From an archaeon (GTDB lineage: Archaea; Hydrothermarchaeota; Hydrothermarchaeia; JALTZZ01; JALUTC01): a DNA stretch of 17,505 nucleotides. Of this stretch, positions 821 to 17,278 are shown one piece after another. The position numbers were made by a program, and so were the translations under genes. How positions within the stretch are numbered: position 1 is the stretch's first letter; every line of letters starts with the position of its first letter. Under the pieces are notes generated by a model. The model was given only the letters and a program-made list of their open reading frames with translations, searched no databases and had not been told where the DNA came from. The stretch is taken from contig JALTZH010000084.1 in assembly GCA_027051265.1 (NCBI GenBank), forward strand, positions 1 to 17,505. The letters are read 5' to 3'.

Positions 821-854
821 GATTTTGTATTTGCTAACAATTCGTAAAAATTTT

Positions 855-1673
855 ATGCAACAAAATGAAGAGAAAGTAAAAGAGATATTCCTAAAACTTA
901 AAGAAAATGTTAAATATAGTCTAGAAGCTGAATATATTACCCCAGATGATTTTGCTGGAAAGAGTAGAGAAGAAATAGAAAACATACAAGTATACTATGC
1001 GAATATTAGAAAGAAACTAGGTGAATTTTTTGAAATAGAAGGAAATGCTACCAATGCAAAACCTTCAGAAATTAAAATAATAATAATTGGAGACTTATCC
1101 AAAGTTAAAAGAATTGGTGAGCGGATGACATCTGGAACTATTATAATAAAAGGTAATGTAGGAATGCATCTGGGAGATTATATGAAAGGTGGTAAAATTT
1201 TAGTTGAAGGAAACGTTGGCAGCTTTTCTTTCACAAGCATGAAAGGTGGCGAAGCTATAATAAAAGGAAACGTTGGTGATTATCTCGCATGTACATACAG
1301 AGGAGATTGGAGAGGAATGAGTGGAGGAAGAATTTTAGTTGAAGGAAATGCAGGAGATATCGTAGGATTGTTCATGCAGGATGGTTTAATTGAAATAAAA
1401 GGAAACGCTGGTGAATTTGTCGGAAATCATATGAAAGGTGGTACAATAATTGTATATGGAACAGCTAGAAGAGTTGGTGCTCAAATGAAAGGTGGAAAGA
1501 TAGTAATGTTGAACGATATAGAGATATTACCCAGTTTTAAATTTGTTGGAAATGTTAGTAATCTAACAATAGACAAGTACACGTTTAATTATACATTTAA
1601 AAAATATATTGGAGATTTTGCTGAATCAAAAGATCCGAAAGGTGAGCTTTATGTCAAGATTGATACAAAGTAA
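855..1673 (+). CDS. fwdC: FwdC/FmdC-like protein (formylmethanofuran dehydrogenase subunit C, GXGXG beta-helix)
   Basis: About 272 residues. The middle is a run of seven turns of the type G-x-x-M-x-G-G-x-I (for example GDYMKGGKI, GNHMKGGTI, GAQMKGGKI), the GXGXG right-handed beta-helix shared by FwdC and the glutamate synthase alpha C-terminus. The stretch YRGDWRGMSGGRI is characteristic of FwdC. In the tungsten/molybdenum formylmethanofuran dehydrogenase, which makes or oxidises formyl-methanofuran at the C1 end of the methyl branch, this subunit is structural. No other fwd subunit is in the window, so it is an unlinked copy or has a different partner. I start it at the ATG at 855, which follows TTTT, rather than the in-frame TTG at 825, because the extra ten residues sit against the last CRISPR repeat. 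Its promoter must overlap the decayed end of the array. Confidence 0.85.
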   Translation: MQQNEEKVKEIFLKLKENVKYSLEAEYITPDDFAGKSREEIENIQVYYANIRKKLGEFFEIEGNATNAKPSEIKIIIIGDLSKVKRIGERMTSGTIIIKGNVGMHLGDYMKGGKILVEGNVGSFSFTSMKGGEAIIKGNVGDYLACTYRGDWRGMSGGRILVEGNAGDIVGLFMQDGLIEIKGNAGEFVGNHMKGGTIIVYGTARRVGAQMKGGKIVMLNDIEILPSFKFVGNVSNLTIDKYTFNYTFKKYIGDFAESKDPKGELYVKIDTK

Positions 1674-1692
1674 CTAGGAGAAGTTTTATATT

Positions 1693-2214
1693 TTAAACGT
1701 TGAGATTACGTATTTGTTGCAGATATTTTTTTCTAACTTTTAACAAGAATTTACATACAATATCGGTTTTATAATCGGGAAATGTCCACGGTAAATAGAT
1801 GCAAGAATTCTTTCTAAACAATAATGTAACTTCCGCAAATACATTTTTCGATAAATAAACTCTATGAGGTCTTTCTTTCTTAGACGTAAGAATTAAACTC
1901 GTTACAGTTATATAGCCGGGATCAATATTTATTTGACGTTTATTATTAATCATATATTTTTGTTCGATATTCATTGTATTCAGCTTAATTTTAACGATAT
2001 CTTCTCTATCTATTAAATGCTCAAACGATAATAATCGCTTTTTTAAATTCTTACCAAACTCTTTTTCATAATATCTCGTAAATTTATCAAAATCATATTC
2101 CTCCGACTCTTCATCAACAGGACCATAAATCTCTTCCAAATATTTTTTTACATTATTAAATATATTTAAATTTTTATACATCATAGCAACAATAAGTTTA
2201 ACCATTCTAATCAT
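1693..2214 (-). CDS. DUF4416 family protein
   Basis: The product of about 173 residues matches the DUF4416 pattern: an N-terminal VKLIVAMMYKN strand, then YYEKEFGKNLKKRLLSFE, then NIDPGYITVTSLILTSKK, HRVYLSKNVFAEVTL and LPWTFPDYK near the end. The function of the family is unknown. An in-frame ATG at 2292 would add 26 residues rich in Tyr, Ile and Lys with no family similarity. The TATA-like box at 2243-2252 would then lie inside the gene, so I prefer the ATG at 2214 (MIRMVKLIV); the ATG at 2205 is also possible. The gene stands alone: its 3' end faces the fwdC-like gene 19 bases away and its 5' end faces a 260-base AT-rich gap. I know the family mainly from thermophilic bacteria, so transfer is possible. 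Confidence 0.8.
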   Translation of the reverse strand: MIRMVKLIVAMMYKNLNIFNNVKKYLEEIYGPVDEESEEYDFDKFTRYYEKEFGKNLKKRLLSFEHLIDREDIVKIKLNTMNIEQKYMINNKRQINIDPGYITVTSLILTSKKERPHRVYLSKNVFAEVTLLFRKNSCIYLPWTFPDYKTDIVCKFLLKVRKKYLQQIRNLNV

Positions 2215-2242
2215 ATAATTGAAATTATATTTCACTATAAGC

Positions 2243-2252
2243 TTTATATATA
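2243..2252 (-). promoter_or_regulatory. TATA-like box A of the DUF4416 gene
   Basis: The minus strand reads TATATATAAA, centred about 33 bases upstream of the chosen ATG at 2214. That predicts a short leader of roughly 8 bases. It is the main argument against the longer start at 2292. Confidence 0.5.
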
Positions 2253-2445
2253 CGTTAGCCAATATATAAGTATAAATCCTACGAAATTTCACCTGTGAAG
2301 TCTATTAAATGTATTCTAATAACTTTGCTAAGAATAATATAATCCTAAACGAATATTTACTTGTAACACTTAAAGTTATTTAAATTTCCAGTAGAGTAAT
2401 ATGTATTTACACAAATAGATAACAAAATTCATACATATGTAATAA

Positions 2446-2455
2446 ATTTTTAAAT
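2446..2455 (+). promoter_or_regulatory. TATA-like box A of the secreted coiled-coil gene
   Basis: TTTTTAAATT lies about 28 bases before the ATG at 2479, predicting a nearly leaderless transcript. The rest of the gap 2293-2478 is AT-rich, and I see no gene, RNA motif or repeat in it. Confidence 0.4.
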
Positions 2456-2478
2456 TATCTTATTATTTAATATTAAAT

Positions 2479-3669
2479 ATGATGGGGGCGAAAATCCTTT
2501 ATTTACTTATAGCTGGAATATTTCTTGTATCAATAGGGTATGGACAAGTAATTCTAGTAAGTGACAATGTTGCGGATTATGCTCTAGCAAAAATCGTCGA
2601 AAAAAAATTAGGATATGAAGTTGTAAAAACACCATGGGGTAAATATGAGGAAGAAGTTCTCAACAAAATTATCAACTTAAATCCTAGTGTTGTCGTAATC
2701 ATCGGCGGCCCTGTAGCCGTTCCAGAATTGTATGAGAAAAAGTTATTAGAACTAAATATAACGGTTAAAAGAATATACGGTGAAAATAGAATAGAAACAG
2801 CAATCAAAGTAGCAAAGTTTTTAAACCTAACAAATGTTGTAATTGTTAACGGCTATGATCCACTCAGTATAAGGAAAGCTCTTGATTTAGCTATGAGAGA
2901 AGATTGTATGCTGATATTTATAAAACAAGAGATACCATCCGAAGTAAGAAAAATGTTAGAAGTTGCTAAAAGGAAATTGTTGATAAAAACACCTGGAGTA
3001 AATATAACAGAGGAAGAAGTTGAAATAATAGAAGAAGACTTATACAACAAAACGTTAAACTTAATTGAATATGTTAAAGAAAGAATCTCAGAAATTAAAG
3101 AAAGACTCAAAAATGAAACAAATAAAGGAATATATATAGCAGTTGATAGAGTACTTAAGAATGCCGAAAAAGTCCTTAACGAATCCATTGAAAGACTAGA
3201 AGATAAAAAATTACAAGCAGCATATAACCTTGCCATATCCGCAATGTATATGGTTGAGGCTGCTGAGAGAATATTGGAAAGAGCTCAGTTAGAAAAGTTT
3301 GGAGAGATTTTCAGAGAAGAACTTAAAGAATTAAGAAAAGAACTTATGGAAATGAAAAAAGAACTCAAATCGTTAAAGATGAGATATATCAAAGAATTAA
3401 ATAAAACGCTAGAAATGTGTTTGGAACAAAATATATCAAGAGAAAAATGCAATGAAATGATAGAGGAATTGAGAGAAGAGTTCAGGGATGAAATTGAAGA
3501 GATTGTTGAAGAAATGAAAGAAATGAAGTACGAATTTATGGAAGAACTTAAAGAAATGGCTGAAGAATACAGAGAAAAAATGTTTGAAATGAGAAAAGAA
3601 ATGAGAGAAAAAATGCACGAAATGCGAGAAGAGATGAGAGAGATAATGAGAGGATTAAGAGAGGATTAA
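2479..3669 (+). CDS. Secreted cell-wall-binding-repeat-2-like protein with long Met/Glu-rich coiled coil
   Basis: 396 residues. Residues 1-23 form a signal peptide (a Lys, then a hydrophobic core ending near GYGQ). Residues 24-125 resemble one CWB2 (cell wall binding repeat 2) unit: VILVSDN opening, IIGGPVAVP at 74-82 and RIYGENRIETA at 98-108. CWB2 domains normally come as three units and hold surface proteins to the envelope in Gram-positive bacteria; related domains occur in archaeal surface proteins. A second partial unit may begin at VVIVNGYDP (120-128). From about 175 to the end the chain is almost all charged helix; the last 120 residues are built mainly of E, K, R and M. There is no C-terminal membrane anchor. 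Several NxS/T sites fit an exported glycoprotein. A surface stalk or S-layer-associated role is inference. It is monocistronic and converges on ribH with 3 bases between stops. Confidence 0.75.
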   Translation: MMGAKILYLLIAGIFLVSIGYGQVILVSDNVADYALAKIVEKKLGYEVVKTPWGKYEEEVLNKIINLNPSVVVIIGGPVAVPELYEKKLLELNITVKRIYGENRIETAIKVAKFLNLTNVVIVNGYDPLSIRKALDLAMREDCMLIFIKQEIPSEVRKMLEVAKRKLLIKTPGVNITEEEVEIIEEDLYNKTLNLIEYVKERISEIKERLKNETNKGIYIAVDRVLKNAEKVLNESIERLEDKKLQAAYNLAISAMYMVEAAERILERAQLEKFGEIFREELKELRKELMEMKKELKSLKMRYIKELNKTLEMCLEQNISREKCNEMIEELREEFRDEIEEIVEEMKEMKYEFMEELKEMAEEYREKMFEMRKEMREKMHEMREEMREIMRGLRED

Positions 3670-3672
3670 TTT

Positions 3673-4092
3673 CTATTCCTTTTTTTCTTTTAATCTTTTT
3701 ATCATTTTAACAACTGCTTCAACTGCTCTCTTTGCATAGTCGACACGATCAAGAGCTTCTACTAAACTTTCACCAGGACCTGATATTCCTAGAGCAACAG
3801 GTTTTCCATATTCTATCATCAAATCCATTATTTTTCTCGCAGCATGTTGGGCTACGATTTCATCATGTTTTGTTTCACCTTCTATAACAGCACCAAGAGC
3901 AACGACGCCATCGATATCTTTATCTTCCAATAATTTTTTAACAGCAAGTGGAATTTCGAAGACGCCTGGAACTTTTATTACTCTAACAATTTCAACGCCG
4001 AGGAATTCTGCATGCTCTTTTGCCTGTTTCAACATTAGGTATGTTATTTGGTAATTAAATTCTGATACAACAATTCCTATTTTAATTTTCAT
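3673..4092 (-). CDS. ribH: 6,7-dimethyl-8-ribityllumazine synthase
   Basis: 139 residues, the usual length. It condenses 5-amino-6-ribitylaminouracil with dihydroxybutanone phosphate to give lumazine, the penultimate step of riboflavin synthesis; in F420-using archaea the same precursor also feeds deazaflavin synthesis. Visible signatures are the N-terminal VVSEFN substrate loop, [15 protein letters not shown] (42-55), [16 protein letters not shown] with the catalytic His at 76, and the phosphate-contacting GISGPGE region. The enzyme forms 60-subunit or pentameric shells in other organisms. It lies 12 bases behind the small coiled-coil gene on the same strand, so the two are probably cotranscribed. 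Confidence 0.96.
3679..3692 (+). terminator. Possible T-tract terminator after the secreted protein gene
   Basis: A seven-T run followed by C and four more T sits 10-22 bases after the TAA at 3667. Archaeal RNA polymerase can stop at T-tracts without a hairpin. The tract lies inside the 3' end of ribH, where it encodes Lys-rich residues, so it could be coding only. Confidence 0.35.
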
Positions 4093-4104
4093 TCACTACA
4101 CTTC

Positions 4105-4296
4105 TCATTTAATTTTTTTTTCGAGTTTATCTATTCTCTTCTTTAATTCATCGATTTCTTTTTTTAATTCTAAAAATCTCTCTTCGATTAATCTAAAAAT
4201 GTTTGCATAGTATTCAGAATCTTGCTCAAATTTTTTCATTTCATTAATTATGTCATATGGTTTGGTTGGATATATATCGATGTTTGGATACCTCAT
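4105..4296 (-). CDS. Small coiled-coil protein, unknown function
   Basis: 63 residues. The first 30 contain an aromatic/proline-rich segment (MRYPNIDIYPTKPYDII). Residues 38-63 are a clean heptad coiled coil of E, K, L and I (for example ELKKEIDELKKRIDKLEKKIK trimmed to its core LKKEIDELKKRIDKLEK). There is no membrane segment or cysteine. It starts 36 bases from the divergent Fe-S gene and ends 12 bases before ribH, so it is probably the first gene of a two-gene transcript. I do not recognise a family. Its codon use and position support a real gene. Confidence 0.6.
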   Translation of the reverse strand: MRYPNIDIYPTKPYDIINEMKKFEQDSEYYANIFRLIEERFLELKKEIDELKKRIDKLEKKIK

Positions 4297-4332
4297 AATT
4301 TTATTTAAAAATTCATTTTTTTCGCAATTTTT
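4297..4332 (+). promoter_or_regulatory. Compact divergent promoter region
   Basis: Only 36 bases separate two divergent starts (4296 minus, 4333 plus). TTATTTAAAAATT at about 4306-4318 is a fair TATA box roughly 20-26 bases before the plus start, which follows TTTTT directly and so is probably leaderless. The minus-strand box is not clear; the same AT-rich, nearly symmetric element may serve both directions. Confidence 0.35.
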
Positions 4333-4803
4333 ATGAGATTGAATCCTTTGGATATTTATAAATACTTACCTAAAAAAAACTGTAAGAAATGCGGTTTACC
4401 TTCCTGTATGGCTTTTGCTATAAAACTTATAAAACGTGAAGTTGGTTTGGAGGATTGTCCCGAGATTAATTCAGCAATGTTTATAAGAAATAAAATGAAG
4501 TTAAAAGAAATACTTAAAGAGTATTATAAGTCGTTGGAAACAAAGCTTGTTATCGATGAAAAGTTATGTAATGGTTGTGGAATATGCATGATTTCATGTC
4601 CTGTAAATGCTTCATACAGTTTAGATGTTGCTGGTGGTAAAGGATTTGAAAAGGATAACAGTAATCTCATTTACAAAATAGAAGATGGAAAGGTAAAGGT
4701 AATAAACATTAAAAAGTGTAGAAGATTTGAAGAAGATATAGAATCGAGACCTTGTAGTGTTTGCGTAGATAATTGCCCAACTAAAGCGATAACATTTCTT
4801 TGA
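4333..4803 (+). CDS. Ferredoxin-like Fe-S protein with N-terminal CdhE/AcsC-type cluster motif
   Basis: 156 residues with three predicted [4Fe-4S] sites. Residues 17-42 carry C-x2-C-x4-C-x16-C (KNCKKCGLPSCMAFA ... EDC), the four-Cys module found at the N-terminus of the gamma subunit of CODH/ACS and of RnfB-like proteins. Residues 79-89 are C-x2-C-x2-C-x3-C-P (CNGCGICMISCPV). The last Cys group is C129, C141, C144 and C148-P (RPCSVCVDNCP). As usual in two-cluster ferredoxins the ligands are probably shared between the latter groups. There is no membrane segment. It is the first gene of the operon with ccmC, ccmD and ccmE, with only 2 bases before ccmC, which suggests a redox role linked to cytochrome c assembly. 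That link is inference; it could instead serve C1 metabolism. Confidence 0.8.
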   Translation: MRLNPLDIYKYLPKKNCKKCGLPSCMAFAIKLIKREVGLEDCPEINSAMFIRNKMKLKEILKEYYKSLETKLVIDEKLCNGCGICMISCPVNASYSLDVAGGKGFEKDNSNLIYKIEDGKVKVINIKKCRRFEEDIESRPCSVCVDNCPTKAITFL

Positions 4804-4805
4804 CT

Positions 4806-5447
4806 ATGATCTCCTCAATTCTTATACTGATTTCATACCTCATATCCCTATATGTTGCATACAATGTTTTATTTAAATTAAAAATCTATGCATATGAAGG
4901 ATTTGAAGTTGTTGAAGCAAAAATAGCATTCTTTCATATACCAAGTGGATTGACAGCATATCTAGCTTTTACTGTAACATTTATATTAAGCTTATTATAC
5001 CTAAAAAATAAGAACTTAAAAAATGAGGTTCTTGCATATTCCTCGGCTAAACTAGGAACGATGTTTACATTTCTAACATTAGCTTCTGGAATTATTTGGT
5101 CCAAACTTGCATGGGGTGCTTATTGGCATTGGGATCCAAGACAGACAACCGTCTTGATATTGTTCTTAGCTTTTCTAGCTTATATATTTTTAAGAAACAG
5201 TATAGAAAACATTTCAAATAGAGCAAGAATCTCTTCGATATATGCTATCGTTGCTTATTTTATGGTTCCAATATCTTACCTCTCTGCAAGAATGTTTGGA
5301 AGTTTACATCCCAAAACAGGTCAGTGGAGTATGGATCCTATAGGAATCTTTATGCTTCTTTTAATGATGATAAGCTTTATTCTACTATATATAGCATTGC
5401 TTAGGATTGAATATAAAATAAATTTAAAGGTGGAAGGATATGGATAA
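4806..5447 (+). CDS. ccmC: CcmC-like haem-handling membrane protein for cytochrome c maturation
   Basis: 213 residues with about six membrane helices. The tryptophan-rich periplasmic signature WGAYWHWDPRQT is at 103-114, flanked by the two expected axial histidines, H44 (FFHIPSG) and H168 (GSLHPK). In the Ccm system I pathway CcmC binds haem in the WWD domain, with these histidines as ligands, and attaches it to CcmE. I start at the ATG at 4806, two bases after the stop of the Fe-S gene. A TTG at 4800 overlapping that stop would add two residues. The last 8 bases overlap the start of the ccmD-like gene. No CcmA, CcmB, CcmF or CcmH is in the window. Confidence 0.88.
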   Translation: MISSILILISYLISLYVAYNVLFKLKIYAYEGFEVVEAKIAFFHIPSGLTAYLAFTVTFILSLLYLKNKNLKNEVLAYSSAKLGTMFTFLTLASGIIWSKLAWGAYWHWDPRQTTVLILFLAFLAYIFLRNSIENISNRARISSIYAIVAYFMVPISYLSARMFGSLHPKTGQWSMDPIGIFMLLLMMISFILLYIALLRIEYKINLKVEGYG

Positions 5448-5544
5448 GATTCAGGGGATATTCCTTGTGATATTAATCTTATATACAACACTACTACTCT
5501 ACGTAATTTACATTGAAAGAAGATTAAGAAAAATTGAGAGGTGA
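5440..5544 (+). CDS. ccmD: CcmD-like 34-residue membrane protein
   Basis: A very short gene between ccmC and ccmE. The product begins MDKIQGIFLVILILY, forms one membrane helix and ends in a basic tail (YIERRLRKIER). CcmD proteins have this design: one helix and a charged cytoplasmic tail, in a complex with CcmC and CcmE that releases haem-loaded CcmE. The ATG overlaps the ccmC stop by 8 bases and is preceded by AAGGTGG with 6 bases of spacing. The stop overlaps the Shine-Dalgarno site of ccmE. Size, topology, position and translational coupling all agree. The primary sequence is too short for a firm family call. Confidence 0.78.
   Translation: MDKIQGIFLVILILYTTLLLYVIYIERRLRKIER
5538..5544 (+). 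promoter_or_regulatory. Strong Shine-Dalgarno site of ccmE
   Basis: GAGGTGA, complementary to the archaeal 16S rRNA 3' end, lies 6 bases before the ccmE ATG and inside the ccmD stop. It serves as the local reference for internal-gene initiation and matches the site before priS. Confidence 0.75.
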
Positions 5545-5550
5545 CCATTA

Positions 5551-5922
5551 ATGAAAAAAATGTTATATATTTTTGTTATTGCATCTCTCATTTTTGCTAT
5601 ATATAGCATTATAACGTATTCTATACCAACGGTTGAAATGTCTGAGTTAGAGAAATTTATAGGAAAAGATGTACAAGTTCAAGGGACTGTTGTAAAAGGA
5701 AGTTTAAGAATATTTGAAAATAACAATACCATAGTATTTTCTATAACCGATGGAAAAAATGTTGTAAGAGTATATTATAATCTTGAGAAGTTATATATTC
5801 CTTCTGAAACTGAAGAGTTAATAGCTATTGTTAGAGGAAAGGTTATAGATAAAGAAACTATTCTTGCAAAAAAAGTTCTCATTTCATGTCCTTCCAAATA
5901 TGAAATTAAGGTTGAACAATAA
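5551..5922 (+). CDS. ccmE: CcmE haem chaperone, cysteine variant
   Basis: 123 residues: a short N-terminal membrane anchor (about 4-25), then an OB-fold beta domain with the family pattern GKDVQVQGTVVKGSL near 38-52. Near the end is C-P-S-K-Y (C113, Y117). Classical CcmE binds haem covalently through His in H-x3-Y. A variant with Cys instead (C-x3-Y) is known from archaea and some sulfate reducers, and this protein belongs to it. It should accept haem at the CcmC/CcmD complex on the outer face of the membrane and pass it to apocytochromes. It has a strong GAGGTGA site and follows ccmD by 6 bases. Confidence 0.88.
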   Translation: MKKMLYIFVIASLIFAIYSIITYSIPTVEMSELEKFIGKDVQVQGTVVKGSLRIFENNNTIVFSITDGKNVVRVYYNLEKLYIPSETEELIAIVRGKVIDKETILAKKVLISCPSKYEIKVEQ

Positions 5923-5934
5923 CATTAAAAAAAA

Positions 5935-6981
5935 ATTTTAGAACTAACTGAAAAAATTAGAAAGAAAGGTTTAAAAAGTAGAAAACAATCTGTAAGAGCA
6001 AAATTTTGGATTGAAGAGGATTATATCGGTAAAAAGGTTAAAACTGGTGTTCTTATATTACCAACAATCGGATGCAGACATGCTAGAAAAATAGGATGTA
6101 CTATGTGCGGTTACATATATGATACGGGTACAAAAATTACAAACGAATTTATTGTAAAGGAATTTCTAAGAGCATTAGAATTTTTTAAGAAAAATGAAAT
6201 CGAATACTTGAAAATATATACATCCGGTAGTTTTTTAGATGAAGAGGAAATAGATACAGATACGAGAGAATTTATGTTAAAGAAATTGAACGAATTAAAT
6301 TTAAGAAGATTATGCATAGAAACTAGAGTGGAATTTATAAAACCCTTAAAATTGGAATACGATTATGAACTCGAATATGCTATTGGTTTAGAATCGAGTA
6401 ATGATTTTGTAAGAAACGTTCTAATAAATAAAGATTTAAACCTTCAAGACTTTGAAGAGGCAATAAAGTTATGTAAGAAAAATAAAATTAAGACAAAAAT
6501 TTATCTATTATTAAAACCGCCATTTTTAACAGAAAGAGATGCTATAGAAGATTGTATAAAATCTGCTATGTATTGTTCCCAATTGGGAGTTGATAAAATA
6601 TCAATAAATCCTATGAATATACAGAAATTTACCCTCGTTGAATATCTCTGGAAAAATAACGAATACTCTTTACCATGGTTATGGAGTCTTGTTCACGTGC
6701 TAAAAGAAATTAAATTAAAAGTAAGAGTTCCAGTTGTATCATATCCAGTTGCTGCTGGAACATCTAGAGGAATTCATAACTGTAAGAGATGTAGTAAGAA
6801 AGTCTTAAGTTCAATTTTAAATTTTTCTCTAACACAGAACGTTAATTATTTAGAGGAAATTGATTGCCACTGTAAAAATTTATGGCGTGAATTATTATTC
6901 TTAGAAGATTTAAACCGATCAAACTATAATATTTCTAGAGAGTTTTATTCTCTTCCAATCCAGAATAACGAATCTAAGTAA
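5935..6981 (+). CDS. raSEA: Archaeosine biosynthesis radical SAM protein RaSEA, no canonical start codon
   Basis: From the ATT at 5935 the frame encodes about 348 residues. The radical SAM cluster motif C-x7-C-x2-C (GCRHARKIGCTMCGY) begins at 6073. The first internal ATG (6103) is inside this motif and cannot be the start. Upstream, the frame gives FWIEEDYIGKKVKTGVLILPTIGC, a clear match to the RaSEA N-terminus. A C-terminal Cys cluster (NCKRC ... CHC) fits the zinc site of the family. RaSEA with the lysine transferase ArcS converts the preQ0 adduct at G15 of tRNA to archaeosine. Between the in-frame stop at 5926 and 6103 there is no ATG, GTG or TTG. Options are ATT (5935), or an ATG at 5900 in another frame reaching this frame by slippage on the A9 run at 5927-5935, or a sequencing error there. 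It follows ccmE closely. Confidence 0.85.
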   Translation: MLELTEKIRKKGLKSRKQSVRAKFWIEEDYIGKKVKTGVLILPTIGCRHARKIGCTMCGYIYDTGTKITNEFIVKEFLRALEFFKKNEIEYLKIYTSGSFLDEEEIDTDTREFMLKKLNELNLRRLCIETRVEFIKPLKLEYDYELEYAIGLESSNDFVRNVLINKDLNLQDFEEAIKLCKKNKIKTKIYLLLKPPFLTERDAIEDCIKSAMYCSQLGVDKISINPMNIQKFTLVEYLWKNNEYSLPWLWSLVHVLKEIKLKVRVPVVSYPVAAGTSRGIHNCKRCSKKVLSSILNFSLTQNVNYLEEIDCHCKNLWRELLFLEDLNRSNYNISREFYSLPIQNNESK

Positions 6982-7000
6982 AAATTTATTGATATTTTAG

Positions 7001-7335
7001 TTAAAATAATAAAAAATCGGGGGTTAAAATTATACCTATAAATGTTCCCAACATAAACCTCGAAAGCATGTCAAGTCTTTTTTCTAATCCTCTCATCTCA
7101 TTTCTTAAACCTTCAACTTTAATATCAACGTATTCCTTCAAATCATTCTTCAACCTTTTTAATTTCGTTTTTAAGTTTTTCGATATCATCTTTGGTAGCG
7201 ACTTCTTTCAGAACAGCTTTAACAATTAATTTCCTTGATCTCAAAGCGATTTCCGTTGCTAGGATATCTGTAATTCTTACTCCTTGCTTCCTCGTCTCTC
7301 TCAAGCATTTCTGTGAGCTTCTTTAAATCTATCAT
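7001..7335 (-). pseudogene. Small coiled-coil/membrane protein gene broken by two frameshifts
   Basis: Three overlapping minus-strand frames join into one sensible protein. From the ATG at 7335: MIDLKKLTEMLERDEEA. In the second frame: RKQGVRITDILATEIALRS, then KLIVKAVLKEVATKDDIEKL. In the third: LKEYVDIKVEGLRNEMRGLE, then KRLDMLSRFMLGTFIGIILT. Together they give about 105 residues with an N-terminal helical region, a central coiled coil and a single C-terminal membrane helix. A second copy at 8037-8159 contains both the middle part and the membrane part, which supports their having been one gene. Read alone, the third piece is a 62-residue ORF starting at 7189. The function is unknown. Sequencing indels in A-rich runs could mimic this decay. 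Confidence 0.6.
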
Positions 7336-7407
7336 CTATCAAAGAAAAAAATTAACCTCAAAAGTTTTCATATCGTTTAAACTTACAACAGAAGCAAAAA
7401 ATAAAAA

Positions 7408-7920
7408 CTAATAATTAATACCAAGTTGTTGACACATGAGTGTATACTTATCACCATGATAATGAATATTCTTTACGCATTTTCCTTTTTTATTCTTCTC
7501 AAATTCTTCTATACTCCATAGATTATATCCGATTGCTATTGGAAAGTTTTCATATTTAATATATACGAGAGAATCTTTCTTTATATTTTTATCATAATCT
7601 AAAACACCCGGCCTCATGAGATCTGCACCGTTTAAAATACTTTTAGCAGCGCCTTTATCAACGAGAATCCAATATTTATTGAGATTTATTTCTCTCAAAA
7701 GTTTTAAGCTGGGAAATATCATGTTCTTATACTTGATAAATAAGGGGTTTCTCTCTATTACAATAAATGAGAATGATCGATTTAGCTCTATTATTTCAAC
7801 TCTTTTTTTTAAATAATCTTTAAGTTCAGGAAATTCGTTCAATATTTCGTTAAAAATTTTCTTTACAAGACTTTTTCTCAAATAATACCTTTTTATTTCA
7901 GTTTGTCGCGAGGTCATCAT
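7408..7920 (-). CDS. PUA domain RNA-binding protein, MCT-1/Tma20 type
   Basis: About 170 residues. The C-terminal half has the PUA core: YWILVDKGAAKSILNGADLMRPGVLDYD, written here by its key parts VDKGAAKSIL and GADLMRPGV, followed by KKDSLVYIKYENFPIAIGY. The N-terminal half (RYYLRKSLVKKIF) is the pre-PUA domain of the archaeal MCT-1-like family, related to eukaryotic density-regulated initiation factors; a translation role is known for the eukaryotic relatives and inferred here. The only ATG codons near the start (7920 and 7917) lie in the C' box of a C/D box sRNA on the same strand. A TTG 13 codons in would remove part of the conserved RYYLRK segment. The start is therefore uncertain, although the frame is secure. 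Confidence 0.8.
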   Translation of the reverse strand: MMTSRQTEIKRYYLRKSLVKKIFNEILNEFPELKDYLKKRVEIIELNRSFSFIVIERNPLFIKYKNMIFPSLKLLREINLNKYWILVDKGAAKSILNGADLMRPGVLDYDKNIKKDSLVYIKYENFPIAIGYNLWSIEEFEKNKKGKCVKNIHYHGDKYTLMCQQLGINY

Positions 7921-7951
7921 CCTTCCTTCAGATGTCGCTGGGCTTCATCAT
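7898..7951 (-). ncRNA. C/D box sRNA guiding 2'-O-methylation
   Basis: On the minus strand the order is: C box ATGATGA (7951-7945), a 13-nt guide AGCCCAGCGACAT, D' box CTGA (7931-7928), a 7-nt linker AGGAAGG, C' box ATGATGA (7920-7914), a 12-nt guide CCTCGCGACAAA, and D box CTGA (7901-7898). All four boxes are perfect. The total of 54 nt and the 12-13 nt guides are the normal archaeal design bound by L7Ae, Nop5 and fibrillarin. The guides are GC-rich in an AT-rich neighbourhood, as expected for rRNA or tRNA targets. By the N-plus-five rule the methylated bases would be C in AUGUC(GCUGGGCU) and U in UUUGU(CGCGAGG). Both guides share GCGACA next to the D boxes. I could not assign targets. The RNA overlaps the 5' end of the PUA gene. 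Confidence 0.85.
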
Positions 7952-8036
7952 TTATTAAAATAAAAAAATATTACTCTGTTGCAAATTTTAAGTCGGGAAT
8001 TAATTTATAAAAGTTTTGTTAAAATTATAAGAACTG

Positions 8037-8159
8037 AGAATTAATATTATACCTATTAAAAGTTCCTAACATAAATATCTTTCGTAGTAACTTTTTTAGT
8101 ACTATTTTAGCGATAGGTTTTCTCGATTTAATAATAATCTCAGCAGCTAAGATAAGAAA
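8037..8159 (-). pseudogene. Relic of a second copy of the small coiled-coil/membrane gene
   Basis: Immediately after the priS stop the minus strand reads FLILAAEIIIKSRKPIAKIV, then LKKVTTKD, which aligns with ITDILATEIALRSRKLIVKA, then VLKEVATKD, of the locus at 7001-7335. It then jumps, in another frame, to FMLGTF followed by a sequence almost identical in bases to the membrane-helix end of that locus (TTTATGTTAGGAAC against TTTATGTTGGGAAC, then ATAGGTATAAT in both). The roughly 50-residue coiled coil between these parts is missing. This is an internally deleted, frameshifted paralogue. The surrounding gap 7952-8036 shows only AT-rich sequence. Confidence 0.65.
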
Positions 8160-9071
8160 TTATCTTAAAACCTTAGGTCTAGCATCATATATTGGATTAA
8201 ATTTATATAAATTCTTTACCTCCTTACATATGAGACCAACTTTTGAATGTAAAGAGCTTGGTAATCTTATCAGTCTTTTCAAATCTACTGTTACCTTAGA
8301 GTCTAGAATTTCTCTATTTACTTTAACGACATCGTTTATAAGTTCTCTAAAAATCTTCGATCTTCTCATACTATTTAAATCATCAATGCTCAATATTTTT
8401 TTGATATAGGATATATATCTTTTATATCTTCCAAATTTTTTTGAATAATCCAACCTCTTTAAAAATTCAAGAATTGTTCTTTTAAACGTTTTATAATAAG
8501 CATATCCTTTAATTTCTTCTTCCAGATCTATGGGTTCACAACCGATCACGAATTTCAGTATCTCAGCTCTCTCAAAACTTTCTAGATTCAATATTTCTTC
8601 GTCAACTACTCTTATATGATAACCTCTACCAGAAAATATTACATGGATATCTTTCAATCCTAATTCTTTCAGGCTATCAAGTATTATATAAACATAATCT
8701 TTCGCATCGTTTAAGCATATTTCACAAACGTCCCCTCTCTTACAACTACATGTTCTTAAAGGCATATCTTTAACATCTAAATCAAAAACCAATTCGGATC
8801 CTAACCAACCTTCCATTTCTTCAGGTATTTCATAAAATGCTGTACTGGAATATATTGCATATGGGTATTTTTTTCTTATCCATTTTTCCAAATCGGTTAT
8901 ATTTTCAAACTTTCTATATCTATCACTTGGTCCTTCTCCAGTATAATCAAAACCGAATTCCTTATATCTTAAATTTCTCAATATAAATTTAGGTATATAT
9001 TTTAAATTCCATTCAGTTGTATAATAGAGTTTTCTTTCTTCAAGAGTTACTTCTCTAAAATATGTTACAAT
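8160..9071 (-). CDS. priS: DNA primase small (catalytic) subunit, ATT start
   Basis: With the start at 9071 the protein has 303 residues. It makes RNA/DNA primers together with PriL at replication forks. Visible features: the N-terminal YFREVTLEERKLYYTTEW segment, FGFDYTGEGPSDR, the catalytic D-x-D at 97/99 (ELVFDLDVKD), a zinc knuckle (CSCKRGDVCEIC), SGRGYHIRV, and the C-terminal third-Asp region VDLKRLIRLPSSLHSKVGL. The D-x-D position nearly equals that of Pyrococcus PriS (95/97), which requires the N-terminal extension. The first ordinary start codon in frame is a TTG at 8981, which would delete about 30 conserved residues. The frame is open back to a TAG at 9084 and contains no ATG, GTG or TTG before 8981. 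The ATT at 9071 lies 7 bases behind GAGGTG. The gene follows archease directly. Confidence 0.93.
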   Translation of the reverse strand: MVTYFREVTLEERKLYYTTEWNLKYIPKFILRNLRYKEFGFDYTGEGPSDRYRKFENITDLEKWIRKKYPYAIYSSTAFYEIPEEMEGWLGSELVFDLDVKDMPLRTCSCKRGDVCEICLNDAKDYVYIILDSLKELGLKDIHVIFSGRGYHIRVVDEEILNLESFERAEILKFVIGCEPIDLEEEIKGYAYYKTFKRTILEFLKRLDYSKKFGRYKRYISYIKKILSIDDLNSMRRSKIFRELINDVVKVNREILDSKVTVDLKRLIRLPSSLHSKVGLICKEVKNLYKFNPIYDARPKVLR

Positions 9072-9078
9072 ATTGTAA

Positions 9079-9084
9079 CACCTC
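9079..9084 (-). promoter_or_regulatory. Shine-Dalgarno site that points to an ATT start for priS
   Basis: The minus strand reads GAGGTG, sharing its first G with the archease TAG stop, then TTACAAT, then ATT. The six bases pair fully with the archaeal anti-SD, and the spacing of 7 is close to that of the ccmE site in this window. No other start codon in the primase frame is within reach. Confidence 0.7.
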
Positions 9085-9497
9085 TAAACATCAACTATAA
9101 ACCTAGCAACCCAAAGATCATCTTTCTTCTTTATTTCCAAATTATGATACGTTACTGCTTTAACTTCAGTTCTTAATTCATGAGATTCGGATGCTTCTTC
9201 ACCATAAGCTTCACCTACTAATCTATATTTATTTTTAATTTCTACCCTAAATTTTGAGAACATCATGTTGTAAATATCCTTATATGCTAATAGAGACGAT
9301 AACCAAGCAACGAGGAGGAGATCTATCTCCTCTTCCTCTACAACGATTTCTTTCTTTTCTTTTGGAGAAACTTTCTCTAGATTACACATCAGATTAAACA
9401 CTGCTTTTGCAGCATTTTCAAACAATTCGTTTAAGTTTTTACCATACGCTATTATACCAATATCAGCTGTTGTTTCGAAATATTCATAAGATTTCAT
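9084..9497 (-). CDS. Archease
   Basis: 137 residues, the usual length. Archease is the protein cofactor of the RNA ligase RtcB; it speeds guanylylation and multiple turnover in tRNA splicing and RNA repair. Signatures are the N-terminal Y-E-Y-F-E-T-T-A-D-I-G-I motif (family D-H-T-A-D form, here with T in place of H, and D12 retained), NLNELFENAAKAVFNLM, the WLSSLLAY segment, EVKAVTYHNLEI and the C-terminal RFIVDV strand carrying a metal-binding Asp. A TATA-like box ends the upstream gene and predicts a nearly leaderless mRNA from the ATG at 9497. It is followed directly by priS. RtcB is not in the window. Confidence 0.94.
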   Translation of the reverse strand: MKSYEYFETTADIGIIAYGKNLNELFENAAKAVFNLMCNLEKVSPKEKKEIVVEEEEIDLLLVAWLSSLLAYKDIYNMMFSKFRVEIKNKYRLVGEAYGEEASESHELRTEVKAVTYHNLEIKKKDDLWVARFIVDV

Positions 9498-9523
9498 AAG
9501 AAATATGAAGAAATGTTCTCACG

Positions 9524-9535
9524 TATTTATATCTT
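9524..9535 (-). promoter_or_regulatory. TATA-like box A of the archease-priS unit
   Basis: AAGATATAAATA on the minus strand lies about 32 bases before the archease ATG and overlaps the stop codon of the upstream radical SAM gene, so archease-priS probably has its own transcript as well. Confidence 0.55.
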
Positions 9536-10592
9536 AATAATAGAAGTGATAACGATTTCTCTCCGTATCTTTTGAAACAGATTTCTTTATCATATCAATG
9601 TATTCCATAATAAATTGTTCGATACGTAATCTTTTCTCAATTATTCTTTCAATTATCTTTTTATCGATCTCTATCTTTGTCTCCTTTGTATAATCGTACG
9701 TCGATAACAATCTTTTAAAGTCTGTAACTGTCCCGCTTGGAATTCTACCTACGTATAAGATCTCCTGCTCTATTCTTTTTGCAACTTTAGTACCAAATAT
9801 TTTAAACAATGGGAACTTTGTCAATGCATTAGCACCTGATAATAGGAATAAACCTATAGATGAGATGTTATCAATCCATGGTCCAACAGTTATCTTGATT
9901 TTAGGAAATCTTATCCTCGTTTCCGCAATTATTTCAGAAACATATATTGTTGATGGCGAAACATTATTCTCAAAAATTGTACCTTTATGTGGTATTAACG
10001 TATAGAATATTATCTTATCAAGTTTAAGTTCTTTAACCAATTTAAACAAATTTTCTAATTTGGTTTTATCTTCTCCTAATCCAAGTATTATAGTTATACC
10101 TGTTTTAAAACCAACGCTCTTTGCTTCTTTAAGCATTTTTATTATTTCTTCTAAATTTTTAGACGGACATATATTTTTTCTAAGCTCGAAATCAAACGTT
10201 TCAACAGCACCAACGATACCTTCAACGTAAGATCCGAAGTCTAAATTTTTTAGCACACCAACATTTAACCATACCGGTTCACCAACAACGTATGATACCA
10301 TTTGTGATATCTCATCGATTTCTTTATGAGTAAAAGCGTTATATCCTGAGGTAAGAAATTCTATCTTCCATCCAATCCTTTTACACAATATTGCTTCGGC
10401 TAAAACTCTGTAAATATTTCTTATAGCTTTATTTTTGTCGATCTTTTCTTTGATAGAAGACATATAACAAAACTTACAATCCGCTATACCACAATACCAA
10501 GATAAGAACAATGCTCTTTCAAATGATACAACGTTACCATGATATTTTAATGTTAATTCATTAGCTTCTTTAAGTTTTTCAAAGTAATCCAT
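9534..10592 (-). CDS. Radical SAM protein, biotin-synthase-related (COG2516-like), unknown substrate
   Basis: 352 residues. The cluster motif is C34-x4-C39-x2-C42 (WYCGIADCKFCYMS), a variant of the standard C-x3-C-x2-C. The TIM-barrel follows: IEFLTSGYNAFTHKEI, a GAVETFD glutamate strand, GFKTGITIILGLGED (the glycine-rich SAM-contacting strand) and FYTLIPHKGT. The C-terminal half includes SGANALTKFP and TDFKRLLS. This architecture fits the biotin synthase-related radical SAM group COG2516; no substrate is known to me for it. There is no extra Cys cluster, so an auxiliary Fe-S site is unlikely. It is the first gene of the minus-strand block that continues with archease and priS. Its TATA-like box lies at the edge of the tnpB relic. 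Confidence 0.8.
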   Translation of the reverse strand: MDYFEKLKEANELTLKYHGNVVSFERALFLSWYCGIADCKFCYMSSIKEKIDKNKAIRNIYRVLAEAILCKRIGWKIEFLTSGYNAFTHKEIDEISQMVSYVVGEPVWLNVGVLKNLDFGSYVEGIVGAVETFDFELRKNICPSKNLEEIIKMLKEAKSVGFKTGITIILGLGEDKTKLENLFKLVKELKLDKIIFYTLIPHKGTIFENNVSPSTIYVSEIIAETRIRFPKIKITVGPWIDNISSIGLFLLSGANALTKFPLFKIFGTKVAKRIEQEILYVGRIPSGTVTDFKRLLSTYDYTKETKIEIDKKIIERIIEKRLRIEQFIMEYIDMIKKSVSKDTERNRYHFYY

Positions 10593-10610
10593 TTTTTATA
10601 ATCTTAATTT

Positions 10611-10622
10611 AACTTTATAACT
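10611..10622 (-). promoter_or_regulatory. TATA-like box A of the radical SAM gene
   Basis: AGTTATAAAGTT on the minus strand, about 25 bases before the ATG at 10592, predicts a leaderless transcript. It lies just beyond the last recognisable tnpB codon at 10630. Confidence 0.45.
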
Positions 10623-10629
10623 TTCATAA

Positions 10630-11440
10630 CTAAAGTATTGATCTAACGTAAGCTTCGAATCTGCTTCTCCATACGATGTAGTACTTTCTGACTTTATCTA
10701 AGTTTCTTTTGGATTAAGCTTCGGCAATCCTCTTCCTCAATTAGAATGCTTCCGCTTTCAATGGTTTTCCGTTGATTAGGAAAGTGGTTCCATCTTTTAC
10801 GAAGACCGTGAACAAATTATTGATGCCTAGATCGATACCTGCTTGTTTATTTCCATAAGGTGTTAGAGAGATTTTTCTCCATTCGTTACTTACGATTTTT
10901 TTCTTCGACGTAGGATAGTATATATGCGAACCATTTTTTCTCACATCATCATAACGAATTTTGAGACGTTTTTGTTTGCCTTCGATATGGATTCTACCTT
11001 TATATTTTAGTTTGAACTTAAAATCTTTCAGATTCGTGCCTTATGATCAAAAAGGGTTCTCTTTTATTTTTCTTCCTATCCTTTTTATATCCCGGTGGTC
11101 TTGGAATTATGAAGCATGGCCATGTTTTCCTTCTTAAGCTTAAGAAGTTTGAAAAAAGATTTCCACGCCTCAGTATTCTTCCTCGAACATTCTTGTACTT
11201 CTCGTATATCATTTTCTCAGTCGTCGCAAAATCCACCCTTACCTCGTTGAAAAATTGCCTCCTACTTAAATAATTTATCTCGTTCCAACACCTCGCAAAT
11301 ACATCTCCAAGTTCAAAAAGTTTATTCTCCGTTTCTTTGTCTACAACTAATCTTACTCTACATGTCTTCGTTAATATCAATTCTCGTTTCTTCTTCGTAT
11401 CTTTTTTTTCAACGTTGCGTGCGAGATATGCATGCATCAA
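10630..11440 (-). pseudogene. tnpB: Decayed tnpB (IS200/IS605-family RNA-guided nuclease)
   Basis: The parts of a TnpB protein follow in order but in several frames. From 11440: LTKTCRVRLVVDKETENKLF, then FARCWNEINYLSRRQFF. In a second frame: NTEAWKSFFKLLKLKKE. Back in the first: IPRPPGYKKDRKKNKREPFL. In a third: YKGRIHIEGKQKRLKIRYDD and GIDLGINNLFTVFVKDGTTF, holding the first RuvC Asp. It then meets in-frame stops at 10741, 10714 and 10630, between which LRKRIAEA and DKVRKYYIVWRSRFEAYVRS are still readable. The C-terminal RuvC parts and zinc finger are gone. TnpB is the RNA-guided nuclease of IS200/IS605 elements; this one must be inactive. No tnpA is visible. A perfect short palindrome, TGACATTGTCA, at 11523-11533 may be left over from an element end, but this is uncertain. 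Confidence 0.92.
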
Positions 11441-11561
11441 ACAAATATTTCGCTTGTTTCTTAAATCTAATCTTCCTCATGACTTATTCAATTCACTCCA
11501 TCCTGAAAGACGAAGCTTGGATTGACATTGTCATGCAATAGTTTTACAAAGCATATATGTT

Positions 11562-12962
11562 TCATTGCGTGCAGTTAGTGTGTATTTTTGCGGTTTTTTC
11601 CAAATCACTTAAATCAAAACAATAAACTTTTCTTCCTTCGAATTCGGAGATCTTTCTACTAAAACTTTTGGCAAATATTGCAAAGTATTCTTTTCTCTGA
11701 TTATTGGACCAATTAACGTAGTTAGACTTTTCTACAAGTTCTTTAACAGATTTCTTGGCATTAACCCCATCCTTCCACTTACATTCGCAGAATAGTATTT
11801 CTTTAGTATTTTCATTTAAAGCAACTATGTCAATTTCATAAGTTTCTTTTGTTTTAGAAATCTTTCCCCATTGTTTACCTATCCTTATAAACATAGGTAG
11901 TTTTTTGTGTTTTATTAGCTCGATTAGGAATTCTCTGCATATCTTTTCGAAGACAAGACCAAGATATGTGTTATAATCTTTTTTAATAATTTTGATATCG
12001 AAGATGCCCTCTTCTATAGATGATAAATTCGGATAGATATATCTAAACCAAAATGTTAGGAAGTTATCTTGAAGGTAATACCTACCTTTTCTGGATGTTT
12101 TATTTTCCAATATAGGAACTTCTCTTTTTATGAACTCGGTTTCGATGAGGTTTTTTAGATACGGAGAGATATCCGTCCTTCTCAAACCTATAAAATCTTT
12201 AATTTCGTTAACTTTCGTTTTTCCACGTGCAATTGCGTGAAGAATAGATTTGTATGTACCGATATCCTCAAATTCATATCTAAGTAAGAAATCCATCTCA
12301 TCAACGATAAAACTCTTTATTTTTAACTCTTCCTCAAGCCATGTCCAAAAGTTTTTTGTGGGATCTATTTTTTTAAGATAATAAGGAATCCCATCCGCAA
12401 ATCCATAAATTTCTATAAGCTCGTGTATGCTTTTTTTAGGGAAGAATTCTCTTATCTCTAAAAATCTTATAGGTTTCAGTTTCAAAGAAAGGCTTTTCCT
12501 TCCATAAAGTGGTGCTTTATAGCTTAGAACTTTTGAGGTAATTACAGAAACTGTCGAACCGAGCAATATTAGTTTCAGATTAGAATCTTGGAGCAAAGTA
12601 TCGACAATTCTTTGAAAAATAGAAAGGATGGCTTTGTTTTCTTTTATGAGATTCTGGAACTCATCTATAATTATAACTTCTATCTTATCCTTGAGATAAT
12701 CAAATATTATTTCCCAATCTTCTTTTAATTTTGAAACTTCCGGAAAACGTTTAGCACAAGTTTCTTGAAATGTTTTAAGATTAGCCTTTTCAACGGCAAG
12801 ATAATATATCCTTTCTTTATTCTTAGTAGCTTCTAGAACAAGAGTTGTTTTTCCTATTCTTCTTCTTCCATAAATTATTATTAAATCGAATCCTTCTTTA
12901 TTTAAATATCTTTTCAGTTTAGCTAATTCTTCTTTTCGGTTATGAAATTTTTGTATATTCAT
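11562..12962 (-). CDS. Archaeal ATPase with C-terminal DUF234 domain
   Basis: 466 residues, full length for the family. FHNRKEELAKLKRYL at the N-terminus, Walker A GRRRIGKTT (32-40), Walker B VIIIDEFQNL near 95-104 and the sensor-like KLILLGSTVSVI define the archaeal AAA/STAND-like ATPase of COG1672. A helix-turn-helix follows (GKTKVNEIKDFIGLRRTDIS) and then DUF234, which looks like a PD-(D/E)xK nuclease fold: E-x-D in YEIDIVAL and ECKWKDG close to the C-terminus. Such proteins are numerous in archaea; their function is unresolved, and defence or mobile-element roles have been suggested. It is a single gene with the tnpB relic behind it. It is divergent from metG across 191 AT-rich bases. Confidence 0.88.
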   Translation of the reverse strand: MNIQKFHNRKEELAKLKRYLNKEGFDLIIIYGRRRIGKTTLVLEATKNKERIYYLAVEKANLKTFQETCAKRFPEVSKLKEDWEIIFDYLKDKIEVIIIDEFQNLIKENKAILSIFQRIVDTLLQDSNLKLILLGSTVSVITSKVLSYKAPLYGRKSLSLKLKPIRFLEIREFFPKKSIHELIEIYGFADGIPYYLKKIDPTKNFWTWLEEELKIKSFIVDEMDFLLRYEFEDIGTYKSILHAIARGKTKVNEIKDFIGLRRTDISPYLKNLIETEFIKREVPILENKTSRKGRYYLQDNFLTFWFRYIYPNLSSIEEGIFDIKIIKKDYNTYLGLVFEKICREFLIELIKHKKLPMFIRIGKQWGKISKTKETYEIDIVALNENTKEILFCECKWKDGVNAKKSVKELVEKSNYVNWSNNQRKEYFAIFAKSFSRKISEFEGRKVYCFDLSDLEKTAKIHTNCTQ

Positions 12963-13153
12963 AATTATACTAATATTAATTATACAAATTTAAACGTTTC
13001 GCTTTTTTATTGTAAATGTTGTGAACTAAACCTAAGTGGGTAGAGAATATTGAAACGTAAACAAAACTTAATCACCAATAGAGAAAACCCATTTCTTTAA
13101 AAAACGTGAAGAGTTAATATAGATAAATTGAATATCATTTTTTCAATTTTTTT
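12963..13153. promoter_or_regulatory. Divergent intergenic region between the ATPase gene and metG
   Basis: 191 bases, AT-rich, with no ORF or RNA motif that I can see. The metG ATG follows TTTTTTT directly; TTAATATAGAT around 13114-13124 and CTTTAAAAA around 13095-13103 are candidate TATA boxes. On the minus strand TATAATTAATATTA lies close to the ATPase start. No clear operator is visible. Confidence 0.35.
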
Positions 13154-15091
13154 ATGAGAATATTAATCACCGCAGCTTTACCATATGTAAATAACGTTCC
13201 ACATATAGGAAATATCGTTGGAAGTCATCTACCTGCGGATATATTTGCAAGATTCTGTAGATTACTTGGATATGAAACGTTATTCATAGGAGGTAGTGAT
13301 GAACATGGTACACCGATAGAAGTTACTGCAAGAAAATTAGGAATTCCTCCTAAAAAATTGTGTGATGTTTTTTATGAGATACATAAGGAAATATACGATT
13401 GGTTTAATTTTAGTTATGATAATTTTTCAAGAACGTCGAGAGAGATTCATCATCAAACAACAAAAGAGTTCTTCCTGAAAATGTATGAAAACGGATACAT
13501 AATTGAAGGTGAGCTAAATTTACCTTATTGTGAAAACGATAAGATGTTTCTACCAGATAGATATGTTTATGGAACCTGCCCAAAGTGTGGTTATGAATTG
13601 GCTAGAGGTGATCAATGCGAAAAATGTGGTACTCTCCTAAATCCGGAGGATTTGATAAACATAAAATGTACTATTTGTAACGAAAAACCTATATTTAAAA
13701 AAGTTAAACATTTGTTTTTTGATTTAAGTAAGTTACAGAAAAAACTCGAAGAATGGATTATGAGTAAAAAGGATATCTGGTATGAGCATGTTTTAAACTT
13801 AAGTTTATCGATAATAAAACAAGGCTTAAAGCCACGTTGCATCTCAAGAGATTTAAAATGGGGTGTTAAAATACCTATAAAAGGTTATGAGAATAAAGTT
13901 TTTTACGTATGGTTTGATGCACCTATAGGTTATATTTCATCAACGAGAGAATATTTTAAAAAGCAAAATAAAGAAAAAGACTGGGAGAAGTTTTGGAAAG
14001 ATAAGGAAACAAGAATCTATCATTTCATTGGAAAAGATAACATTCCATTTCATACAATCTTCTGGCCAGCTATGCTGTTAGCAAATGGAGAGTATTGCCT
14101 CCCATATTTTGTTGTCGGACTAAATTATTTGAATTATGAAGGAGATAAGATTTCAAAAACCAGACAATGGGGAATATTTTGTGAAAATCTACCAAAATCT
14201 GGATTAGATTCGGATATATGGAGATATTATTTAATACATTTAATACCAGAAACATCTGATACGGAATGGAAATGGAAAGAATTTAAGGAACGCGTAAATA
14301 ACGAATTGGTTGCAAACATAGGTAATTTTATCTATAGAACGCTGTCATTTTTGAAGAGATATTTTAACGGTATTGTTCCGGAATATGAACTCAAAGTTTC
14401 AGATAAAGAATTTTTGGAAGAATTTAAACAGAAAGTTAACGAATATAAAAAACTAATGTTAAAATTAAGGATCAGAGATTCTTTAAGAAAAGTCCTTGAA
14501 ATATCTTACCTTTGTAATAAATATTTTCAAGAAAATGAACCTTGGAAATTGATAGAAAAAGATCGTAAAAGAGCAGAGACGGTAATTTACATTTGTATAA
14601 ATCTATGCTTTTACCTTGCTATTCTTTTAGAACCATTCCTACCTAATACTTCGAAAAAACTTGAACGAATATTAAATAAGAGGATTAAAAGTTTGGAACA
14701 AATATATCAGTTTAATATTAAACCGGGAGATAAAATAGGAGAGCCGGAGATATTATTTCCAAAAATTGATGATAAAAAGATTGAAGAAATAAGAAAAATA
14801 GTTACTAAACCATTAAATTTTGAGGAATTGTTTTACATAGATGTTAATGACTTAATGAAGTTAAACTTGAGATTATGTAAAATAGTTGAAGCAAAAAGGC
14901 TGGATACGAATAGAGTTTTGATTAAGGTAAAAGTTGATGAAAACATTAAGGAAGTTGTTTTAAATACAAAAGATGATGAAAAGAAGCTAATCGGAAAGTA
15001 TGGAGTTTGTACTGAAGATGGATTATTAACAGTTGGCGATAAAATCATAACAGTGGATCGTAATATTGAAGAAAATGCTAGAGTAAGATAA
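13154..15091 (+). CDS. metG: Methionyl-tRNA synthetase
   Basis: 645 residues, class I. It charges tRNA-Met, including the initiator. Seen: ALPYVNNVPHIGN with the HIGH motif as HIGN, GGSDEHGTPIE, one full zinc knuckle (CPKC ... CEKC, about residues 143-158) plus a half knuckle (CTIC), VWFDAPIGYISST, the KMSKS loop as KISKT (GDKISKTRQWG), and the helical anticodon domain with NELVANIGNFIYRT. The last ~85 residues (LFYIDVNDLMKLNLRLCKIV ... GLLTVGDKIITVD) look like a shortened EMAP-II/Trbp-type tRNA-binding domain, the domain used for dimerisation in other MetRS proteins. The start at 13154 follows a T-run, with no Shine-Dalgarno site, which fits leaderless translation. Confidence 0.97.
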   Translation: MRILITAALPYVNNVPHIGNIVGSHLPADIFARFCRLLGYETLFIGGSDEHGTPIEVTARKLGIPPKKLCDVFYEIHKEIYDWFNFSYDNFSRTSREIHHQTTKEFFLKMYENGYIIEGELNLPYCENDKMFLPDRYVYGTCPKCGYELARGDQCEKCGTLLNPEDLINIKCTICNEKPIFKKVKHLFFDLSKLQKKLEEWIMSKKDIWYEHVLNLSLSIIKQGLKPRCISRDLKWGVKIPIKGYENKVFYVWFDAPIGYISSTREYFKKQNKEKDWEKFWKDKETRIYHFIGKDNIPFHTIFWPAMLLANGEYCLPYFVVGLNYLNYEGDKISKTRQWGIFCENLPKSGLDSDIWRYYLIHLIPETSDTEWKWKEFKERVNNELVANIGNFIYRTLSFLKRYFNGIVPEYELKVSDKEFLEEFKQKVNEYKKLMLKLRIRDSLRKVLEISYLCNKYFQENEPWKLIEKDRKRAETVIYICINLCFYLAILLEPFLPNTSKKLERILNKRIKSLEQIYQFNIKPGDKIGEPEILFPKIDDKKIEEIRKIVTKPLNFEELFYIDVNDLMKLNLRLCKIVEAKRLDTNRVLIKVKVDENIKEVVLNTKDDEKKLIGKYGVCTEDGLLTVGDKIITVDRNIEENARVR

Positions 15092-15101
15092 TTTTTCATG
15101 A

Positions 15102-15109
15102 TTTATAAT
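15102..15109 (+). promoter_or_regulatory. Possible TATA-like box upstream of cdhC
   Basis: TTTATAAT in the 54-base gap after metG, about 40 bases before the cdhC ATG. It would give a short leader; read-through from metG cannot be excluded. Confidence 0.35.
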
Positions 15110-15145
15110 TAAAAATTTGTGTTTCTTAAATTTTTTTTATTAATT

Positions 15146-17277: not shown

Positions 17278-17278
17278 A

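Follow-up and report, generated by a model that had tools for sequence, protein, structure and literature searches.

A C/D box guide RNA at the 5' end of an archaeal PUA-domain protein gene, with the apparent start codon in its C' box

The box motifs of C/D guide RNAs (ATGATGA and CTGA) resemble start and stop codons. According to the account of Tripp et al. (2017) given in PMC7994747, about 7% of the C/D sRNAs in six model archaea overlap the 5' end of a downstream open reading frame (ORF), and a 5' overlap of this kind reduced expression of the downstream reporter. In these known 5' overlaps, the start codon usually falls within a guide or on the 3' side of the D box (PMC7994747). For Sulfolobus acidocaldarius, the same review describes box motifs that are essential for maturation and flanking sequences that can be changed without effect. 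Overlapping start and stop codons have also been proposed to speed the evolution of box motifs (PMC7994747). The box C/D protein L7Ae represses the mRNA from which it is made and certain other mRNAs of Sulfolobus through kink-turns (k-turns) in their leaders, and it reduces the expression of reporters that carry k-turn sequences from archaeal mRNAs (PMC5539422).

Here, we describe a locus in a 17,505-nucleotide stretch of DNA (referred to as the window; contig JALTZH010000084.1, positions 1 to 17,505, GenBank assembly GCA_027051265.1) from the MAG (257 contigs) of an uncultured archaeon. The comparison within the genus covers two genomes (i.e., the window genome, G000, and that of a sister species, G001).

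The guide RNA element and the adjoining PUA gene

The element extends from position 7951 to position 7898 on the minus strand and contains four perfect boxes in the order C (RUGAUGA), D' (CUGA), C', and D. Read along this strand, the C box ATGATGA (7951-7945) is followed by the 13-nt D' guide AGCCCAGCGACAT (7944-7932), the D' box CTGA (7931-7928), the 7-nt linker AGGAAGG (7927-7921), the C' box ATGATGA (7920-7914), the 12-nt D guide CCTCGCGACAAA (7913-7902), and the D box CTGA (7901-7898). A first-pass annotation of this DNA had placed a perfect C/D sRNA at 7893-7955; all four boxes, the guide lengths (13 and 12 nt), and the linker length (7 nt) are confirmed, and its interval takes in the present element and a few bases on each side. 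Archaeal C/D box sRNAs typically have guides of about 10-13 nt and a short D'-C' linker, and both features are seen here. The C box (7945-7951, minus strand) also begins a 7-codon ORF, MMKPSDI, whose stop is the UGA of the D' box.

With three mismatches allowed, the full box pattern and spacing matched once in the window and in none of 200 shuffles, and a looser C-D'-C' pattern matched once in the window, compared with an expected 0.01 matches. An Rfam search of the window at gathering thresholds gave no match. We regard the element as a genuine archaeal C/D box sRNA, with a predicted role as a 2'-O-methylation guide.

The downstream gene on the same strand (7920-7408; 170 aa with the C' box as its start) encodes an MCT-1/PH0734-like protein with Pre-PUA and PUA domains. 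The protein scored 137.5 bits (cut-off, 120.6) against TIGR03684, the universal archaeal PUA protein; both Pfam domains were above their cut-offs, and the closest solved structures were those of PH0734 and human MCT-1. The earlier description of the product as a putative translation factor is reasonable on the basis of this family, and the assignment stops at family likeness.

Upstream of the element lies priS, which ends approximately 210 nt before the C box. A TATA-like sequence, TTTATAAA (8004-8011, minus strand), begins 60 nt 5' of the C box; as a candidate promoter, it is compatible with a shared sRNA-PUA transcript, and it does not constitute proof of one. Elsewhere in the window (10741-11440, minus strand), two ORFs resemble a broken TnpB-type transposon protein with the motif KQAGIDLGINNLFTVFV.

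The element in a sister species and the start of the PUA frame

A DNA search recovered the element in the sister genome (contig C103, approximately 1936-1985; E value, 4.9e-10), immediately 5' of a PUA gene whose product is 62% identical to that of the window. The layout is ATGATGA AGCCCAGCGACAT CTGA AGGAAGG ATGATGA CCTCGCGACAAA CTGA a ATA AAA AGG in the window and GTGATGA TGCACCGCGACAT CTGA AAG GTGATGA GCTCGCGACAAG CTGA ttgat ATG AGA AGG in the sister. The D'-C' linker thus measures 7 nt in the former and 3 nt in the latter, the guides keep CTCGCGACAA and GCGACAT beside the D boxes, and the differences between the species preserve the boxes. Because the upstream neighbors differ (i.e., priS in the window and, in the sister, a 366-aa gene called purP-like from its sequence only), the linkage of the sRNA is to PUA.

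The first-pass annotation had treated loss of the boxes in relatives that keep the PUA gene as evidence against the sRNA. The sister retains the boxes, a result that favors the sRNA within the genus. The motif beside the PUA gene was present in the sister species but had no convincing counterpart upstream of PUA at 25 orthologous loci outside the genus.

The sRNA overlaps the start of the ORF downstream on the same strand, whose first ATG codons lie in the C' box, where initiation would take place. Near the conserved domain of this ORF, the only ATGs are those at 7920 and 7917, both within the C' box; upstream, the frame meets stops within the C box, with no ATG, GTG, or TTG between there and the C' box. 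That these are the only ATGs had been stated in the first-pass annotation and holds near the conserved domain, but two other start candidates, a TTG at 7881 and an ATA at 7896-7894 (minus strand), had gone unmentioned. The ATA occupies the orthologous start position. The PUA proteins of the sister and of an order-level relative (G002) begin M-[KR]-R-Y with an ATG, and the window reads ATA-AAA-AGG-TAT at this point. Many of the more distant PUA orthologues start a few residues earlier and have the same basic-aromatic motif.

In the sister, 5 nt separate the D box from the PUA ATG, and within the sRNA the PUA frame is interrupted by stops. The frame of the sister's C' box (GTG ATG AGC TCG CGA CAA GCT GAT TGA; 8-9 codons) terminates a single base ahead of the PUA ATG; its counterpart in the window continues directly into PUA. 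Relative to the sister, the window has a D-box-to-gene spacer that is 4 nt shorter, a C' box reading ATGATGA instead of GTGATGA, and AUA instead of AUG; together, these three differences join the C' frame to the PUA frame. Given that the sister shows the unfused frame, that the window frame is fused, and that ATA stands in place of the presumed ancestral ATG, the PUA start in the window species is most likely the ATGATG within the C' box. The purine-rich linker AGGAAGG resembles a Shine-Dalgarno sequence and lies directly 5' of the ATG; we do not claim such a role for it, since the other loci with starts in a C' box are without a linker of this kind.

C/D sRNAs, apparent C'-box starts, and candidate guide targets in the genus

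Searched genome-wide, the C-D'-C' pattern gave 19 matches in the window genome and 27 in the sister genome, some of which are shifted reads of one locus. A reversed-pattern control gave 0 matches, and other genomes of the class had 0 to 4 C/D pattern matches with an ATG-type C' box. Approximately 40 distinct C/D sRNAs were read in context across the two genomes; their commonest geometry consists of 12-nt guides and a 3-nt linker (13/12 nt and 7 nt in the window element). On the basis of the genome-wide matches, the zero control matches, and the approximately 40 elements read, the window element is one member of a large and genuine set of C/D sRNAs. The genes that adjoin sRNAs in these genomes include several for translation or tRNA functions (gatA, gatB, aspS, ABCE1, the arcS halves, and the MCT-1-like PUA gene), and they recall eukaryotic snoRNA host genes.

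A census of the two genomes yielded six ORFs that start in a C' box. At gatA (window genome, locus L253), the C'-box ATG is the first and sole plausible start, the next start codon being a TTG at codon 45, and at the N-terminal half of arcS (archaeosine synthase; sister, L275) it is likewise the sole plausible start before the conserved region. The same holds in both species for an orphan ORF of 83-85 aa (L265 and L273); the two orthologues can be aligned starting at the C'-box methionine, at 43% identity (E value, 6e-19), and their one gap lies near the C terminus. The sixth case, a translin-like ORF (L238), offers an alternative ATG immediately 3' of its D box. At the L265 orphan locus (C box at approximately 676, plus strand) and the arcS locus L275, the upstream ORF stops within the C box and the downstream ORF starts within the C' box; L273 has the orphan-ORF start in the C' box without an upstream stop overlap. 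Because gatA, the arcS N-terminal half, and the orphan pair are without a start between the C' box and the conserved region, C'-box starts, as read from these ORFs, do occur in the genus. The proposal of the first-pass annotation that the C' box holds the PUA start codon is very probable in light of the sister genome and of three further genes that are arranged likewise.

The sister ArcS is apparently split, its N- and C-terminal halves being encoded at separate loci (L275 and L250), and each half overlaps a C/D sRNA (the start of the N-terminal half lies in a C' box and the stop of the C-terminal half inside an sRNA). The ORF that precedes gatA at L253 resembles, judged from sequence only, an RNA polymerase A'' subunit with an intein.

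The rRNA targets of the guides were scored on class-level relatives, the rRNA genes of the window genome, the sister, and the order-level relative being absent from their MAGs. The D guide pairs with helix 89 of the 23S rRNA of the class relatives (GUUGUCGCG[A/G]GC), with N+5 at U2460 (Escherichia coli numbering). Against one of them (G012), the pairing comprises 10 Watson-Crick bp for the window guide and 11 bp for the sister guide. Shuffled guides were equally good in 44 of 1,000 cases for the window guide, 13 of 1,000 for the sister guide, and 31 of 1,000 for that of a second sister sRNA; these three guides are related sequences and do not represent independent tests. These results provide moderate support for helix 89, with N+5 at U2460, as the putative target of the D guide, and the host's own 23S rRNA is predicted to read UUGUCGCGAG at this site and to carry the methyl group at N+5. 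The second sister sRNA has the same helix-89 guide in the D' position (L067, 674-705, minus strand). This sRNA and the 3' end of an ORF for an ABC-ATPase overlap, and the final residues of that ORF, MMNSRQTES, echo the MMTSRQTE of the PUA extension.

For the D' guide, the rRNAs of the class relatives contained no target better than those of shuffled guides. One candidate, an 8-bp pairing with 23S rRNA at approximately 2086-2093 (E. coli numbering), was rejected, shuffles being as good in 475 of 1,000 cases. Of the genome's 36 own tRNAs, 30 were read, and none of these offered a good site; the best tRNA match of the D' guide has a mismatch beside the methylation position and was rejected. The first-pass annotation had noted that both guides share GCGACA and may address two related sites, an idea that receives partial support: the D guide fits helix 89, and the D' guide is without a convincing target. 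The exact D guide beside CTGA was found in 0 of 392 other genomes, and in this exact form the predicted guide is not broadly conserved. An exact-pattern contig scan for the D guide proved too degenerate; among the matches listed, which were mostly bacterial, only one sister locus (L143) was useful.

Two proposed fates of one transcript and comparison with known systems

We consider it probable that the C/D guide RNA is embedded at the 5' end of the PUA gene, with the AUGAUG of its C' box as the start codon, and that each transcript yields either the sRNA or the protein. If the change ran in this direction, the sRNA would originally have been part of the PUA leader, a position that it retains in the sister species, and the window lineage would then have fused the C'-box frame with the PUA frame. 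A single precursor RNA would have two mutually exclusive fates. In one, L7Ae-Nop5-fibrillarin would bind, and trimming to an sRNA of approximately 55 nt would remove the PUA start; in the other, a ribosome would initiate in the C' box, and the PUA protein would be made. A ribosome on the start codon would cover both C' and D. Competition for one transcript would follow from the anatomy of the C'-box start, provided that the sRNA and the mRNA share a transcript.

The PUA protein may instead start past the C' box, either at the AUA or at the UUG at 7881, behind a real C/D sRNA; the C'-box ATG would then be an accidental in-frame extension, and the sRNA could be excised with the message intact. 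The sister, in which PUA starts just past the D box, and the ATA exactly at the orthologous start position speak for a downstream start, as does the translin-like ORF, the one of the six C'-start ORFs with an ATG right after the D box. Initiation of translation at AUA is very rare, however, and starting at UUG 7881 would delete the conserved KRY motif. Moreover, gatA, the arcS N-terminal half, and the orphan pair lack a shared start between the C' box and the conserved region, and we consider a downstream start unlikely. A chance match or a decayed element without an RNA product would accord with a D' guide that has no target; it is hardly credible for a pattern that is absent from shuffles, that the sister keeps at the corresponding position with changes that leave the boxes intact, and that belongs to a set spread over the genome for which the control gave no matches.

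The C/D motif might also be mainly a cis-regulatory kink-turn, with free L7Ae or the sRNP on the leader repressing PUA translation. Reporter expression falls when L7Ae binds k-turns located in the leader or the coding sequence of an mRNA (PMC5539422), and the C'/D motif sits on the PUA start codon. Nevertheless, the guides as well as the boxes are conserved with the sister, and the element is one of approximately 40 ordinary guide RNAs, with nothing to mark a regulatory role; we judge this explanation to be quite improbable. L7Ae-dependent control of PUA within the either-or arrangement that we favor is possible: the sequence fits both such control and plain competition between maturation and translation, and no feature of it separates the two. 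A wider version of that arrangement, in which the C' box has become a regular start in the genus and gatA, the arcS N-terminal half, and PUA, all genes with tRNA or ribosome functions, are coupled through one transcript to the assembly of ribosome-modifying RNPs, appears improbable. If it were true, free box C/D proteins would switch these three genes off, and a shortage of the proteins would switch them on.

The sRNA is real, and its overlap with the start codon probably is as well. For one and the same pair of sRNA and gene, the sister genome has the element in the leader and the window genome has it fused with the apparent start codon. If the arrangement is confirmed here and at the other genes of the genus, the assembly of RNPs and the translation of the genes concerned would draw on a single RNA in competition.

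The arrangement is an extreme form of the known class of 5'-overlapping C/D sRNA genes, with an uncommon position of the start in the C' box. As in the class described by Tripp et al., a coding-strand sRNA covers the start of the downstream ORF; unlike in that class, the apparent start is the C' box itself, several genes within a single genus have it, and the nonfused state is preserved in a sister species. The locus also resembles the cases in which a box doubles as a punctuation codon. Within the genus, L265 and L275 share both stop and start codons with their sRNAs, whereas in the window, with priS ending well before the C box, only the start codon is shared. In common with L7Ae autoregulation (PMC5539422), a k-turn-forming motif lies in a 5' leader beside the start codon, but the autoregulatory elements are single k-turns without guides, and the element described here is a complete two-guide sRNA.
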